Origin: Okibacterium sp. HSC-33S16
GTDB lineage: Bacteria > Actinomycetota > Actinomycetes > Actinomycetales > Microbacteriaceae
NCBI RefSeq assembly: GCF_024171565.1
Contig: NZ_JALJZZ010000007.1
Location: forward strand, 62,001-126,000
DNA: 64,000 nt
Direction of reading: 5' to 3'
Under the pieces are notes generated by a model, which saw only the letters and a program-made list of their open reading frames with translations, searched no databases and was not told where the DNA came from. The position numbers were made by a program, and so were the translations under genes. Shown one piece after another: positions 14,556-57,726 of this stretch; the first letter of the stretch is position 1; each line of letters starts with the position of its first letter.

Positions 14556-14981
14556 TTAGTAGCCGGTGTAGAGATCGGGGCTGTTCAGCAGAGCGACGAA
14601 GAAAATGATCGCGATGATGTACCCGATGGTCGCGAGCGCGCCGATCACGATACCGACGATGGCGAGGACCTTGCCCTGCTCACCCGTGCGCTTGATCTGG
14701 TTGAGCGAGATGATGCCAAGCACGATCGAGATGATCGAGAAGCCGAGGATCGAGCTGACCAGGGTGATGATCGAGAGCACGTTCCACTTTGCGGACTGCT
14801 GCTGACCGTAACCCTGCGCACCGTACTGGCCCTGGGGGGCACCGTACTGCGGGGCCTGGGGAGCGCCATACTGCGGAGCCTGAGGGGCTCCGTACTGCGG
14901 AGCCTGGGGGTTCTGCCCGTACGGGGGCTGATTCGATCCAGCGTTGGCTGGCGGAATGTTGTTGGTGTTTTCGTCAGTCAT
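14556..14981 (-). CDS. DUF4190-type small membrane protein with PQYGAPQ repeats
   Basis: A 141-residue protein. Residues 1-60 are disordered and rich in Pro, Gln, Tyr and Gly, with three near-identical eight-residue QAPQYGAP units encoded by 24-base DNA repeats. Two hydrophobic segments follow around a polar loop (NQIKRTGEQGK), the DUF4190 pattern. The ATG at 14981 has an AAAGGAG ribosome site eight bases upstream; the longer frame to 15035 lacks one. Function unknown; such proteins are often clustered in actinobacterial membranes. Confidence 0.8.
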   Translation of the reverse strand: MTDENTNNIPPANAGSNQPPYGQNPQAPQYGAPQAPQYGAPQAPQYGAPQGQYGAQGYGQQQSAKWNVLSIITLVSSILGFSIISIVLGIISLNQIKRTGEQGKVLAIVGIVIGALATIGYIIAIIFFVALLNSPDLYTGY

Positions 14982-19437: not shown

Positions 19438-19900
19438 GTTGCTCGAGCACGCAGGGCGGGCACGGCGGCAACGGCCCGGACGGCGGCTTGAGACGTTGCT
19501 CGGACACTAACGGCGGGAGAGGGAGCCCCCGGACGTTTGCTCCGACACTAACGGCGGGAGCATGAGCCCCCGCACGGTTGCGCGGACACTAACGGCGGGA
19601 ACGGGAGCTCCCGGACGGTTGCTCCGGCAGTAAGGGCGAGGAAACCCGGCACTTCCTCGCCGCTTTCGACGGAGCAATGGTCGGTCCCACCCTTTCTGAC
19701 CGAGGAGACGCGTGATTGCCGCCACTTGTGGCGGAGGGCGAGGAGGGCGGCCGGCGTTCCGCCATTTGTGGCGGAGGGCGAGGAGGGCGGCCAGCGTTCC
19801 GCCATTTGTGACGGAGGTCGACGTCGAGCGGCCGGTGGCTGTCGCCATTTGTGACGGAGCTCGCGAAAGGCGCTCAGGCTTCAGCCACGCGTGACCGAGC
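19438..19900. repeat. interspersed repeat array 1 (direct then inverted copies of a ~20-base motif)
   Basis: This fills the 568-base gap between the VOC and serine-hydrolase genes. Four direct copies of GTTGCTCSGNCACTAACGGC start at 19495, 19536, 19577 and 19618, exactly 41 bases apart, with a decayed copy at 19438. Inverted copies (CCGCCATTTGTGRCGGAG) follow at about 19659, 19690, 19719, 19759, 19799, 19842 and 19882, mostly 40-42 bases apart. The copies at 19719 and 19759 also fold on themselves (CCGCCA/TGGCGG). Short frames on both strands here are repeat translations, not genes. Confidence 0.85.
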
Positions 19901-19907
19901 GTCAGCG

Positions 19908-29290: not shown

Positions 29291-29798
29291 GTTGCCCGGT
29301 CGATAGTGGTCGCTCGAGCCCGCTCCCCCGGGCACGACGCCTGGGGCACGACGCACGGGGCGCGCCCCGGGGCGACGCCCTGGGCGATACCCCGGCGTCG
29401 CATTGCTCGGTCTCTAGTGGTCACACACGAGGCCGCTCCCCGGGCACACCTCCGCGTCGCTGCGTTGCTCGGTCTCTAGTGGTCACACACGAGCCCGCTC
29501 CCCGGACACAACGTCCGCGTCGCTGCGTTGCTCGGTCACTAATGGTCGGAATACCCCTCACTTCGAGGTGCCGCATGCGGGTCAGTGGGTTGCTCGGGCA
29601 GAAAGGGTCACTGCACCGCGGTTGCTCCGTCAGTAGTGGTCACTCGCCTCCTTGCTCCGGCGGTAACGGCGGCTTTAAGGCTCGAAACGTGACCTAAAGT
29701 GACCGAGCAACGAATGAGTCGCCCTTTGTGACCGAGCAACGAATGAGTCGCCCTTTGTGACCGAGCAAAGGCTCGAGCAGCCCGTATCGACCGAGCAC
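29291..29798. repeat. interspersed repeat array 2 (same motif family as array 1)
   Basis: This fills most of the 669-base gap between the VOC and MATE genes, which are divergent. Direct copies of TTGCTCSGTCNCTARTGGTC start at about 29291, 29402, 29464, 29527, 29589, 29621 and 29651, first at 62-63-base then at 30-32-base spacing. Inverted copies (CCCTTTGTGACCGAGCAA) follow at about 29691, 29721, 29750 and 29781 with 29-30-base spacing. The layout, direct then inverted, matches array 1. Reading frames here are low-complexity repeat translations. Confidence 0.85.
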
Positions 29799-51078: not shown

Positions 51079-51420
51079 GTGCTTGAATCCGTGACTTCTG
51101 CTGCGCTCTCGAGCGCTCTCGACGGGCTGTCGATGCGTCAGCGCGCCATTGCGAACAACATCGCGAACGTGAACACGGCGGGATACCGCGCACAGCGAGT
51201 GTCATTTGAAGATGCGCTGGCGAATTCCGTTCGATCTGGAAGCGGCGTCACGGCCGCGACCCTGCAGGAATCGCTTGAGCCCACGCAGCTCAACGGCAAC
51301 AACGTGAACCTTGACACCGAAACACTCTCCAACATCGACACCGTGCTGCGCTATCAGTTCGCCGCACGAGCCGTTGAAGGAACATTCACGAGCGTTCGCT
51401 CAGCGATGAGGACCAGCTAA
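51079..51420 (+). CDS. flgB: flagellar proximal rod protein
   Basis: A 113-residue rod protein. The N-terminal rod/hook helix carries RQRAIANNIANVNTAGYRAQRVSFEDAL; the C-terminal helix ends RAVEGTFTSVRSAMR, as in FlgB. The GTG start is at 51079. Its TAA stop overlaps the flgC ATG by one base. Confidence 0.94.
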   Translation: MLESVTSAALSSALDGLSMRQRAIANNIANVNTAGYRAQRVSFEDALANSVRSGSGVTAATLQESLEPTQLNGNNVNLDTETLSNIDTVLRYQFAARAVEGTFTSVRSAMRTS

Positions 51421-51812
51421 TGACTTTTGACGCAATCGGCATCGCTGGCTCGGCCCTGACCGTGCACCGCAAATGGCTAGACGCTGTCTCGGACAACATC
51501 GCCAACGTGAACACGGTGACGAGCACCGACGGTGATGCGTTCCAAGCCCGATACGTCCTGGCCCAGGCCGGGGAGGGCACCAGCGGGGTGCACGTGGCCG
51601 GAGCCGCCTACGGCGACGCCGAGGGCCGGATCGTGTACCAGCCCGACCACCCGCTCGCCGATGAGGAGGGCTATGTCCGATACCCGGACATCGATATGGC
51701 CTCGCAAATGGGACAGCTCATCATGGCCCAGCGCGGTTACCAGGCGAACGCTGCTGTGGTCGACCGGGCCAAGGAAACCTACCAGGCCGCACTTCAGATC
51801 GGACGCTCATAA
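51420..51812 (+). CDS. flgC: flagellar rod protein
   Basis: A 130-residue rod protein with the N-terminal IAGSALTVHRKWLDAVSDNIANVNT and the C-terminal FlgC signature YVRYPDIDMASQMGQLIMAQRGYQANAAVVDRAKETYQAAL. It polymerises with FlgB and FliE into the proximal rod that crosses the membrane and wall. One-base stop/start overlaps join it to flgB and fliE. Confidence 0.95.
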   Translation: MTFDAIGIAGSALTVHRKWLDAVSDNIANVNTVTSTDGDAFQARYVLAQAGEGTSGVHVAGAAYGDAEGRIVYQPDHPLADEEGYVRYPDIDMASQMGQLIMAQRGYQANAAVVDRAKETYQAALQIGRS

Positions 51813-52120
51813 TGCCTATGCCCATCGATGCCATCTCGGCACTTCAGGGATCCGTCGGCGTCGGCTCGGCCGCGACGACCGCACCGGCCGTCACCGACGG
51901 ATCTGCATTTGCCAACGTCCTCGGCGGAGCGATTGACAACGTTCAGCAACTTCAGTCGACCTCCAACGAGCTCGCTGTCAAAGCCGTGACAGGCGATCTC
52001 AACGACATCCACACCGCGACGATCGCCTCGACGCGCGCGCAGGTCACCCTTGAGCTCGTTGCCGCAGTACGCAATAAGGGCGTTGACGCGTTCAACGAGA
52101 TCATGAGGATGCAGGCGTAA
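51812..52120 (+). CDS. fliE: flagellar hook-basal body adaptor
   Basis: A 102-residue FliE. The conserved C-terminus (VKAVTGDLNDIHTATIASTRAQVTLELVAAVRNKGVDAFNEIMRMQA) forms the family helices that link the MS ring to the rod. The N-terminal 40 residues are a variable Ser/Ala/Thr linker. It is coupled by one-base overlaps to flgC and fliF. Confidence 0.94.
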   Translation: MPMPIDAISALQGSVGVGSAATTAPAVTDGSAFANVLGGAIDNVQQLQSTSNELAVKAVTGDLNDIHTATIASTRAQVTLELVAAVRNKGVDAFNEIMRMQA

Positions 52121-53703
52121 TGCCCCAGCAGATCACGTCAGCTTTCGGACGGCTCATGGCCGCCGTTCGGAGTTTCAGCCTGGCACAGCGAACCATCGCC
52201 ATCCTTGGCGTTGCCGTGCTCGCCCTCGGCATCTTCGCGGTGTCGGCGTGGCTGATGAAGCCGGCGTACACGCCGCTGTTCTCCGGGTTAAGCCCCGCCG
52301 ACGCCAGCACGATCGTCGAGCAGCTCGACGCCAACGGCGTCAGCTACGAGCTGGCCAACGGTGGCGCCACCATTCTCGTTCCCGAACAGAACGTCTACGC
52401 CGAGCGGCTTACCGCGGCAGCGGCGGGTCTGCCCTCGTCAAGCACTGGCGGATACTCGCTGCTCGACGAGATGGGTGTGACCTCGTCAGAGTTCCAGCAG
52501 TCCGTCACATACAAGCGGGCGCTCGAAGGCGAGCTGGCCTCGACCATCTCCGCTCTGGATGGCGTGACAACCGCGACCGTTCGACTTGCTGTACCGGAAG
52601 AAACGGTATTCGTTTCGGAAAAATCGAGCCCAACGGCATCCGTTTTTGTGGAGACGAAGAATGGCGTCACTTTGACGGCAGAGCAGGTGCAGGCGATTAC
52701 GCACCTGACGTCGGCGTCGGTGGACGGCATGAAGGCGGAGGACGTGGCGGTCATCGACTCGAAGGGCACCGTGCTCTCGGCGGTCGGGGTTGGTGCGACC
52801 GGATCTGCGGCGCAGCAAACGAGCGACTACGAGCAGCGCGTGCGCGCGTCGGTTCAGGCAATGCTTGACCGGATCGTCGGGCCAGGCAACTCGTCGGTCA
52901 TCGTCGCGGCGGGGGTCAACCTTGAGACGGCCGAGCGGGTCGAGGAGTCGTTTGTGACTCCCGAAGGTGCGCCGGTTCTCGACGAAGCGTCATCGAAGGA
53001 GTCGTATGTCGGCTCGGGCGGCGGAAACGCCGGAGTGCTCGGACCGGACAACATCGCTGTTCCGGAGGGAACCTCCGGCAACGGCAACTACACGTCCGAA
53101 TCGACCACCAAGAACAATGCGGTCGACAAGGTGACGGAGACGCGCACCATTCCGGCTGGCTCGATTGACCGTCAGACGGTATCCGTGGCGCTGAGTGCTG
53201 AAGCTGCAGGAAACATCAACGTGAACGACATCACTTCGCTGGTCGAGTCAGCTGCTGGTATCGACGCGGACCGGGGCGACGCCGTCACCGTCGAGGTGGT
53301 CAACTTCACGACCTCAGCAGCGGACGAAGCGGCCGCGGCCATCTCTGCCGCCGAGAAGGCTGCAGCCGACGAGCGCACCACGCTCCTCATTCGCACCGGC
53401 ATTATCGCTGCAGCAGTTCTCGCAGCTGCGATCATCGCGCTCGTGCTGGTGAACCGTAACCGCCGCCGCCGGCAAGAGGCGCTGGCGAGCCAGTCCAACC
53501 TCGAGCCGGGCGAGTTCCGCGACCTCGTGTTAGCCGACGCAGGCGCGACCGAGGTGCTGACCGCCCTGCCCGAACCGCAGCCGCTCGCTGGGCCGAACTC
53601 GATGGAGCGTACTCGCGCCGAGATCGGCTCGCTCGCCGAGCGGAACCCCGAGAAGACCGCCGCCTTCCTCCGCGGCCTCATGGATGAGAAGCAGCCCGTA
53701 TGA
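52120..53703 (+). CDS. fliF: flagellar MS-ring protein
   Basis: A 527-residue MS-ring subunit with two membrane helices: TIAILGVAVLALGIFAVSAWLM (about 22-45) and LIRTGIIAAAVLAAAIIALVLVN (about 425-450). The ring-building domain between has the family stretches YTPLFSGLSPADASTIVEQLDANGVSYEL and YSLLDEMGVTSSEFQQSVTYKRALEGELASTI. The C-terminal cytoplasmic tail (KTAAFLRGLMDE) binds FliG. It overlaps fliG by four bases. Confidence 0.96.
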   Translation: MPQQITSAFGRLMAAVRSFSLAQRTIAILGVAVLALGIFAVSAWLMKPAYTPLFSGLSPADASTIVEQLDANGVSYELANGGATILVPEQNVYAERLTAAAAGLPSSSTGGYSLLDEMGVTSSEFQQSVTYKRALEGELASTISALDGVTTATVRLAVPEETVFVSEKSSPTASVFVETKNGVTLTAEQVQAITHLTSASVDGMKAEDVAVIDSKGTVLSAVGVGATGSAAQQTSDYEQRVRASVQAMLDRIVGPGNSSVIVAAGVNLETAERVEESFVTPEGAPVLDEASSKESYVGSGGGNAGVLGPDNIAVPEGTSGNGNYTSESTTKNNAVDKVTETRTIPAGSIDRQTVSVALSAEAAGNINVNDITSLVESAAGIDADRGDAVTVEVVNFTTSAADEAAAAISAAEKAAADERTTLLIRTGIIAAAVLAAAIIALVLVNRNRRRRQEALASQSNLEPGEFRDLVLADAGATEVLTALPEPQPLAGPNSMERTRAEIGSLAERNPEKTAAFLRGLMDEKQPV

Positions 53704-57067: not shown

Positions 57068-57726
57068 CCGTCATCGACGCCGTCGGGCGCATCTCCGAAA
57101 TTCAGACCGCGTTGGTGTCGCTCGCGAATCCGACCCGGACGGATTCACTCGCGTCCAGCGCATTCGCGACCACCCTGTCCAAACTCGCTGGCAGCACGGC
57201 AACCCAGTCGGTGAGCGCTCCCTCGGCCGAGCCCGCAACGGATAGCCCCGGTGGTGACGACGTGGTCGCCACCGCAAAGAAGTACCTCGGCGTGCCGTAC
57301 GTTTTCGGCGGCGAGGACTCAACCGGAATGGACTGCTCAGGCCTGGTTCAGCGGGTTTACGCCGATCTGGGAATTGATCTCCCTCGAGTGGTGCCCGATC
57401 AGGCAAAAATGGGCACCGCCGTCGGCTCGCTGGCCGAAGCGCAACCCGGCGACCTCATCGTGGCAAAAGGCAGTGGCCACATCCTCATCTACGCCGGTGA
57501 CAATAAGGTCATTCACGCTCCTCGCCCCGGCACAACAGTGACGCTCGTCGACAACTGGCGGAAGGATTCCGACATCGAGACGATTCGTCGGATTGTGCCG
57601 GCCGCGTCTGCCGCGTCTGCCGCGTCTGCCGCGTCTGCCGCGTTGCCGAGCGGAGTCTCCGCGAGTGACATCGATGCACTCATCCTCGCGTCACAGCGCT
57701 CCGCGTTGACTGGGGGTGCGTGGTGA
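57064..57726 (+). CDS. NlpC/P60 peptidoglycan peptidase inside the flagellar operon
   Basis: A 220-residue cysteine peptidase. The first 60 residues resemble a secretion or rod-targeting segment, not a Sec signal. The NlpC/P60 domain has Cys91 (MDCSGLVQRVY), His139 (GSGHILIYAG) and His151 (IHAPRPG) as the likely triad. A linker with AAS repeats (180-191) leads to a short C-terminal helix. Between fliJ and fliK and coupled by ATGA, it probably opens peptidoglycan for the rod, replacing FlgJ, and may be exported through the flagellar channel. Confidence 0.88.
   Translation: MTVIDAVGRISEIQTALVSLANPTRTDSLASSAFATTLSKLAGSTATQSVSAPSAEPATDSPGGDDVVATAKKYLGVPYVFGGEDSTGMDCSGLVQRVYADLGIDLPRVVPDQAKMGTAVGSLAEAQPGDLIVAKGSGHILIYAGDNKVIHAPRPGTTVTLVDNWRKDSDIETIRRIVPAASAASAASAASAALPSGVSASDIDALILASQRSALTGGAW
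57601..57642 (+). repeat. nine-base tandem repeat in the NlpC/P60 gene
   Basis: Four perfect GCCGCGTCT units plus a partial fifth encode Ala-Ala-Ser repeats in the linker after the catalytic domain. Copy-number change would keep the frame and alter linker length. Confidence 0.85.

Follow-up and report, generated by a model that had tools for sequence, protein, structure and literature searches.

Helically phased arrays of inward-pointing half-sites in Mycetocola, candidate sites of a DNA-binding protein, and their single-palindrome relatives in other genera

Two half-site arrays in the window

The window, by which we mean the whole 64,000-nucleotide stretch of Okibacterium sp. HSC-33S16 DNA analysed here, carries two repeat arrays, and by our analysis its genome (G000) belongs to Mycetocola. 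The first of them, array 1 (19496-19862), is flanked by a glyoxalase-like and a beta-lactamase-like gene, each on the minus strand, and is traversed by frames in the list of window open reading frames. The building block is an oriented 18-bp half-site, TTGCTCSGNCRNWWNNGG. Four copies on the plus strand (19496-19513, 19537-19554, 19578-19595 and 19619-19636) are followed by copies on the minus strand, the first of which (19660-19677) faces the last plus copy; these two half-sites, whose starts lie 41 bp apart, make up the centre of the array (19619-19677, 59 bp in total, with no strand of its own). All four plus copies and the minus copies at 19660-19677 and 19690-19707 were returned by the half-site scan, and weight matrices built from four sibling species returned them as well, in only two of the four cases for 19619-19636 and three of the four for 19690-19707. 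Farther out on the minus strand lie a weak, self-palindromic copy at 19722-19739, a weak, almost self-palindromic one at 19762-19779 (score 12.8), another weak one at 19802-19819 (score 13.9), one at 19845-19862 (score 17.5; two of the four sibling matrices) and a very weak one at 19885-19902, with the copies at 19722 and 19885 falling under the score of 11 set as the listing threshold. The outer inverted copies have lost their TTG end. Folded as single-stranded RNA, the region of array 1 is more stable than 100 shuffles (z -3.1).

Array 1 had been noticed in a preliminary description based on the letters alone, and the exact 41-base spacing reported there for starts at 19495, 19536, 19577 and 19618 is confirmed in the window sequence. 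The four copies of a 20-mer, GTTGCTCSGNCACTAACGGC, placed at these starts stand in a looser sense: the first matches in full, while the others carry 1, 1 and 2 mismatches. A decayed copy at 19438 does resemble the 20-mer, with 4 mismatches, but was left uncounted because it lies 57 bp away, a non-integral number of helical turns. All seven inverted copies are present (19660, 19690, 19722, 19762, 19802, 19845 and 19885), although their spacing, given as mostly 40-42 bases, is in order 30, 32, 40, 40, 43 and 40, and that description of it holds only in part. Two inverted copies had been said to fold on themselves, and as read from the sequence the one at 19720 is indeed a self-palindrome and the one at 19760 nearly so. 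A CRISPR array was rejected, as the repeats are degenerate, inverted around a centre and stepped mainly by 29-32 or 38-43 bp. Searches of Rfam gave nothing above the gathering score in the window or in seven element loci, and two weak matches near array 1, below that score, are taken as chance.

The second, larger array (array 2, 29292-29798) holds eleven half-sites. Seven on the plus strand (29292-29669) start at 29292, 29403, 29465, 29528, 29590, 29622 and 29652, and four on the minus strand (29693-29798) start at 29693, 29722, 29751 and 29781; the facing pair at its centre (29652-29710) is again set 41 bp apart, start to start. The four sibling-species matrices find 5-7 sites in array 1, 4-11 in array 2 and 1-4 in the rest of the window, and in shuffled windows the same matrices find a mean of 0.45-1.8 sites and at most 5 (40 shuffles per matrix). 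The window also contains two tandem repeats, one of a nine-base unit, GCCGCGTCT, in 5.4 copies at 57601-57648, and one of a 24-base unit in 3.3 copies at 14831-14910.

Array plan, spacing and shared positions in Mycetocola

Across the 3.23-Mb genome of the window, the half-site pattern has 111 matches with at most two mismatches, as compared with 42 for a reversed control pattern. Fourteen further stretches of this genome were fetched, and 12 of them carry arrays, which together with the two in the window makes at least 14; L043 and L044 hold isolated matches only and were excluded from the array count. Over the 13 sources scanned, 160 half-sites were scored. The proposal of a lineage-specific interspersed repeat, made in the preliminary description, is thereby borne out: copies beyond array 1 are present in the genome, in at least 14 clusters, and among 398 genomes of the family the strict centre is recurrent in one genus. 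That description had not picked up array 2 or the invariant centre, nor that the spacing follows helical turns, that arrays occupy orthologous positions and that other genera carry single-palindrome relatives.

The arrays of this genome share a common plan, with plus copies to the left of the centre and minus copies to its right, such that the half-sites aim inward; in compound arrays, a few outer copies lie outside any complete unit (e.g. the first in L038). The pitch of the centre is 41 bp at 20 of the 21 junctions in clusters found by half-site alone, the exception being L031 with 101. Over five Mycetocola genomes, 96 of 103 convergent junctions measure 41, six measure 70 or 71 and one 101, where it should be noted that the loci of the four relatives were retrieved by the 41-bp pitch itself, that the bias-free pitch figure is the one from the genome of the window only, and that duplicated units are not independent. 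Tandem steps in the same five genomes fall mainly into two classes, 29-32 bp (169 of 255) and 38-43 bp (61 of 255), together 230 of 255, and the remainder lie mostly near 51, 60-63 and 72. At a period of 10.4 bp, the phase resultant is 0.82 for tandem steps versus 0.24 for divergent neighbours (n = 32). Six arrays (L034, L035, L038, L040, L041 and L042) look tandemly duplicated as whole units of 225-310 bp. The interior and the flanks of Mycetocola centres are not common to different arrays.

The strict centre pattern has 14, 21, 22, 7 and 17 matches in five Mycetocola genomes and none in a sixth, G245, which has weak arrays with steps of 41 and 30 (L176, and L174 partly by eye). In the other 392 genomes of the family, it occurs once each in four, where the half-site scan gave no additional sites, and the reversed control has single matches in 12. 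A slightly longer pattern, run against a collection of 84,980 species, returned 33 stretches, 28 of them from Mycetocola miduiensis, M. manganoxydans and M. zhadangensis; the other five are single matches elsewhere. In viral contigs, 25 stretches have one pattern match each, and since the half-site weights give at most one site per stretch, we regard these as chance; phages and plasmids yielded only weak matches of 28-32 bases, in 2 and 3 records, respectively.

When flanking proteins were compared, the same genes were found on both sides of a sibling array at 10 of the 14 loci of the window's genome (L031, L034, L036-L041 and both window arrays), with the nearest shared genes within approximately 1.7 kb. 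This is a lower bound, because the search would miss any sibling array that has no strict centre. At L042, L033 and L032 the sharing is one-sided or displaced, and at L035 there is no sibling array. The counterparts of array 1 are L132 (G002) and L146 (G200), and those of array 2 are L147 (G200) and L155 (G086). Sibling arrays are unlike in copy number and in letters, and the place is therefore older than the present sequence. With respect to their neighbours, 29 Mycetocola clusters lie in convergent, 32 in tandem and 14 in divergent gaps (n = 75), and 30 of 77 overlap a frame chosen by a crude gene caller.

Do the two arms of a centre covary, as those of a hairpin might? This was asked of 70 centres, drawn from five genomes, with shuffling of the right halves within each genome as the control. 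Outer mirrored positions are Watson-Crick paired 866 times, as compared with 862.8 (sd 9.8) in the shuffles (z approximately 0.3), and inner positions 305 times, as compared with 290.2 (sd 13.9; z approximately 1.1). This set leaves out L031, which is without a 41-bp centre, and near-duplicate centres were removed by hand (22 to 19 in G086, 17 to 10 in G200, and the duplicated units of the window's genome). If the 70 centres are pooled without the within-genome control, the raw pairing count does exceed the shuffles, an excess which, being absent from the within-genome test, we put down to shifts between species. As arms do not covary within genomes, a hairpin appears disfavoured for the Mycetocola arrays; the RNA-structural array of the preliminary description is disfavoured with it, arm pairing being lost at variable positions within these genomes. 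A shift of this kind between species is seen at index 6 of the 55-base centre (counted from 0, each half read inwards), where every one of the 20 G200 half-sites has T and 85% of the 38 from G086 have C or A. Sites at many loci have shifted together, as is expected if a trans-acting reader changed.

Single palindromes in other genera

Single palindromes of about 60 bp, with a near-identical pitch, genome-specific letters and stems of about 22 bp, occur in other Microbacteriaceae and in some Micrococcales outside the family. When 120 genomes of the family were scanned with a model of the centre that uses sequence alone (R1), 11 had matches, including three from Mycetocola; the palindromes reached in this way are near-perfect, with different outer letters and the same core spacing. 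Their dialects include TGATCCGTCACTTTCGG in G026, TGAGGSGTCGAAAAGGG in G036 and GTGGGCGCAAACGG in G099, and several dialects start with TG and finish with CA. G099 holds two palindrome dialects, L223 and L226 (GTGGGCGC... and TTCCGGTGCC...). A second model including the stem (R2) matched at most 41 of 90 family genomes, in 38 of 84 genera and with three of the genomes being Mycetocola, and at most 16 of 119 genomes of the order, 10 of them outside the family, where L295 and L296 look poor. These genome counts are upper guesses, because in the window R2 falsely matches an inverted repeat inside a fliE-like coding frame (51845-51907). By eye, flagellar-looking frames surround the fliE-like one (51079-53703). 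In two other families of Micrococcales (L285, L286, L298 and L299), the core gap is 22 bp and not 23 bp. The finder itself accounts for part of the GG-CC invariance in A2, and other letters stand there in G058, G048, G051 and G009.

The firmest case outside Mycetocola is that of G048 and G058, which is independent of the palindrome model. Searched by half-site only, G048 yields 31 copies (16 forward, 15 reverse) as compared with none for the control, and these pair up into 15 palindromes with a pitch of 40 bp in every case; G058 yields 33 copies, which give 14 pairs at 40 bp and leave 5 unpaired. The arms of the G048 palindromes are almost identical across copies and the loops are more variable. 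Copies in G058 have part of the loop in common, as do those of G048 to a lesser degree. All 16 forward matches of G048 lie at 1.30-2.81 Mb, around dnaA (2.04 Mb), and none elsewhere. Within-genome covariation of the arms, in elements that were partly chosen for pairing, reaches z 3.2 at outer and 2.7 at inner positions in sub-family a of G099, 2.4 at outer positions in G058 and 1.7 at outer positions in G036; for G026, G048 and G045 the z stays under 1 or is negative.

The single palindromes are often found near the 3' ends of genes. In particular, the median distance to neighbouring stop codons is 27 nt and that to neighbouring frame starts 64, and the elements with both neighbours placed lie in 15 convergent, 33 tandem and 5 divergent gaps (n = 53). 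Eight of 57 elements are inside a called frame.

A candidate binding protein and the competing explanations

The anatomy of the arrays fits a protein lying on one face of double-stranded DNA. In the reading that we consider slightly better than an even bet (a probability of about 0.52), every half-site would be a double-stranded site for the same putative sequence-specific DNA-binding protein. Two facing half-sites, 41 bp or four helical turns apart, would nucleate a symmetric complex on a single helix face, and in Mycetocola this complex would grow outward as more protein settles on inward-pointing half-sites three or four turns off. Both the binding and the outward assembly from the centre are inferred here from the layout of the sites. 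The arrays themselves would probably derive from single palindromes of about 60 bp and near-equal pitch, such as related bacteria carry. As to function, our guess is that complexes at gene ends may serve as transcription insulators or roadblocks, as nucleoid anchors, or as both. In this sense, the protein-binding array put forward in the preliminary description is favoured by the anatomy, but falls short of proof.

How do these elements compare with known systems? In iteron and operator arrays, oriented sites lie on one helix face and cooperative binding is expected. Those of plasmid partition or of multi-operator repressors resemble our arrays in these oriented sites on one face, and differ in that here many chromosomal loci stand by unrelated genes with mirror symmetry around an invariant centre. 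REP and BIME elements lie near gene ends, are palindromic and genome-specific, and are paired in opposite orientation, all of which is found here as well; here, however, the half-site consensus is non-palindromic and the pitch is fixed at 40-41 bp. A single REP/BIME unit is a short palindrome with a foot of the GTAG or GGAG type, and the single half-site consensus, which is no palindrome, is not such a unit. A shared interior of the MITE type is absent in Mycetocola centres and partial in G058 and G048. Sites of the SlmA and Noc type are depleted around the terminus. With SlmA (SBS), Noc (NBS), parS and matS sites, the elements have in common tens of short, specific chromosomal sites, which in those systems are read by a protein able to spread or oligomerise (cf. 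PMC4331003 and PMC7468209). Unlike them, they have a 59-bp unit, helically phased arrays in Mycetocola and letters that vary by genus. Genomes with DNA uptake sequences have them in hundreds to thousands. Their dialects in Neisseriaceae likewise combine a conserved skeleton with lineage-specific letters and facing copies near gene ends, according to PMC3630211, and uptake sequences are linked to terminator hairpins in PMC2267715. The elements described here, in contrast, number in the tens and consist of half-sites of about 20 bp in a fixed pair, and with 31 half-site matches in G048 and 33 in G058 their copy number is too low for uptake sequences. On the features tested, none of the known families fits.

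The facing half-sites could instead fold in RNA, as a bidirectional terminator or a hairpin at mRNA 3' ends, with the stem-loop serving to end or protect transcripts. The under-representation of divergent gaps both in Mycetocola (14 of 75) and in the other genera (5 of 53), the median of 27 nt to the stop codon in the latter, with stems of about 22 bp, the z of -3.1 for the fold of the whole array and some within-genome covariation in G099 and G058 all speak for this. That said, a hairpin requires complementary arms and not identical letters across many loci, covariation of the arms is absent within Mycetocola genomes, and a terminator gives no role to extra inward-pointing half-sites at whole helical turns. 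What is more, the TTT of the G026 dialect sits in the 5' arm and its AAA in the 3' arm, the wrong way for a U-tract, and we consider this explanation unlikely. Even less probable, in our view, is that the elements are mobile palindromes, REP- or MITE-like and moved by a transposase, with arrays arising through nested insertion or tandem duplication. Such an origin would go well with sequence families specific to genomes, with the six arrays duplicated as units of 225-310 bp, with the TG...CA ends of several dialects and with a loop partly common to copies in G058 and, to a lesser degree, in G048, but not with Mycetocola centres whose interiors and flanks differ between arrays, with places conserved between species or with a spacing quantised by helical turns.

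Another explanation is that these are nucleoid-occlusion or origin-domain sites comparable to those of SlmA or Noc. The number of elements would be appropriate (7-31 per genome in the six examined), and in G048 none of the ten clusters is farther from dnaA than 0.53 of the half-chromosome. Pooling the six genomes that have a single main contig, with G006 and its two elements left out of the sum, 65 clusters lie at a mean of 0.395 of the half-chromosome from dnaA (P 0.0018), and the terminus quarter holds 7 of them versus 16 expected; note that this test uses rounded genome lengths for four genomes, counts G086 from among the matches listed and includes weak model matches. However, the idea was prompted by G048, and without it the remaining 55 clusters have a mean of 0.41 (P 0.011). 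Individually, G048 and G047 each give P of about 0.02, while the other four, G086, G063, G079 and G009, are non-significant, and one cluster of G086 sits at 0.97. Core genes themselves may also crowd near origins. The origin bias is suggestive only, and we give an origin-domain function as such little chance.

Returning to the reading in which one protein binds all half-sites, several observations count against it as well. A loop partly shared between copies, as in G058, is unpredicted by simple binding to the arms, and the covariation in sub-family a of G099 and in G058, in elements partly chosen for pairing, makes a hairpin role possible in other genera. The region of array 1 has a fold more stable than its shuffles, and the 70 centres covary when pooled across genomes. 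L035 is unmatched in siblings, L032, L033 and L042 are matched one-sidedly or with displacement, 30 of 77 clusters and 8 of 57 single elements overlap frames, and the origin bias is weak. In a search for the cognate gene as a recurrent neighbour, 16 neighbour groups match between genera, none of them in more than four genera, and by eye the dense clusters L125 and L168 and locus L148 have ordinary-looking genes only. A wider proposal is more tentative, and we would sooner doubt it than rely on it. Namely, fixed-pitch palindromes across Micrococcales, chiefly in Microbacteriaceae, may be read by one orthologous protein with genus-specific specificity, and the mirror-symmetric, phased arrays of Mycetocola may give rise to large nucleoprotein bodies and form a new, origin-biased class of gene-end insulators or nucleoid anchors. 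No description of the arrays was found in the accessible parts of the open-licence literature on palindromic or intergenic repeats of Microbacteriaceae and Micrococcales, and Leifsonia, Clavibacter and Tropheryma are absent from the available main text of the stem-loop surveys PMC2267715 and PMC1590033.

For the putative protein, the 59-bp centre would make a ready bait, and the natural dialects provide an inbuilt test of its specificity. The arrays may, what is more, be regarded as a natural ruler of cooperative DNA binding, in which three helical turns can be compared with four. Finally, if a protein does read these sites, a large bacterial family would have an unstudied chromosome-binding system whose target shifts in step genome-wide.
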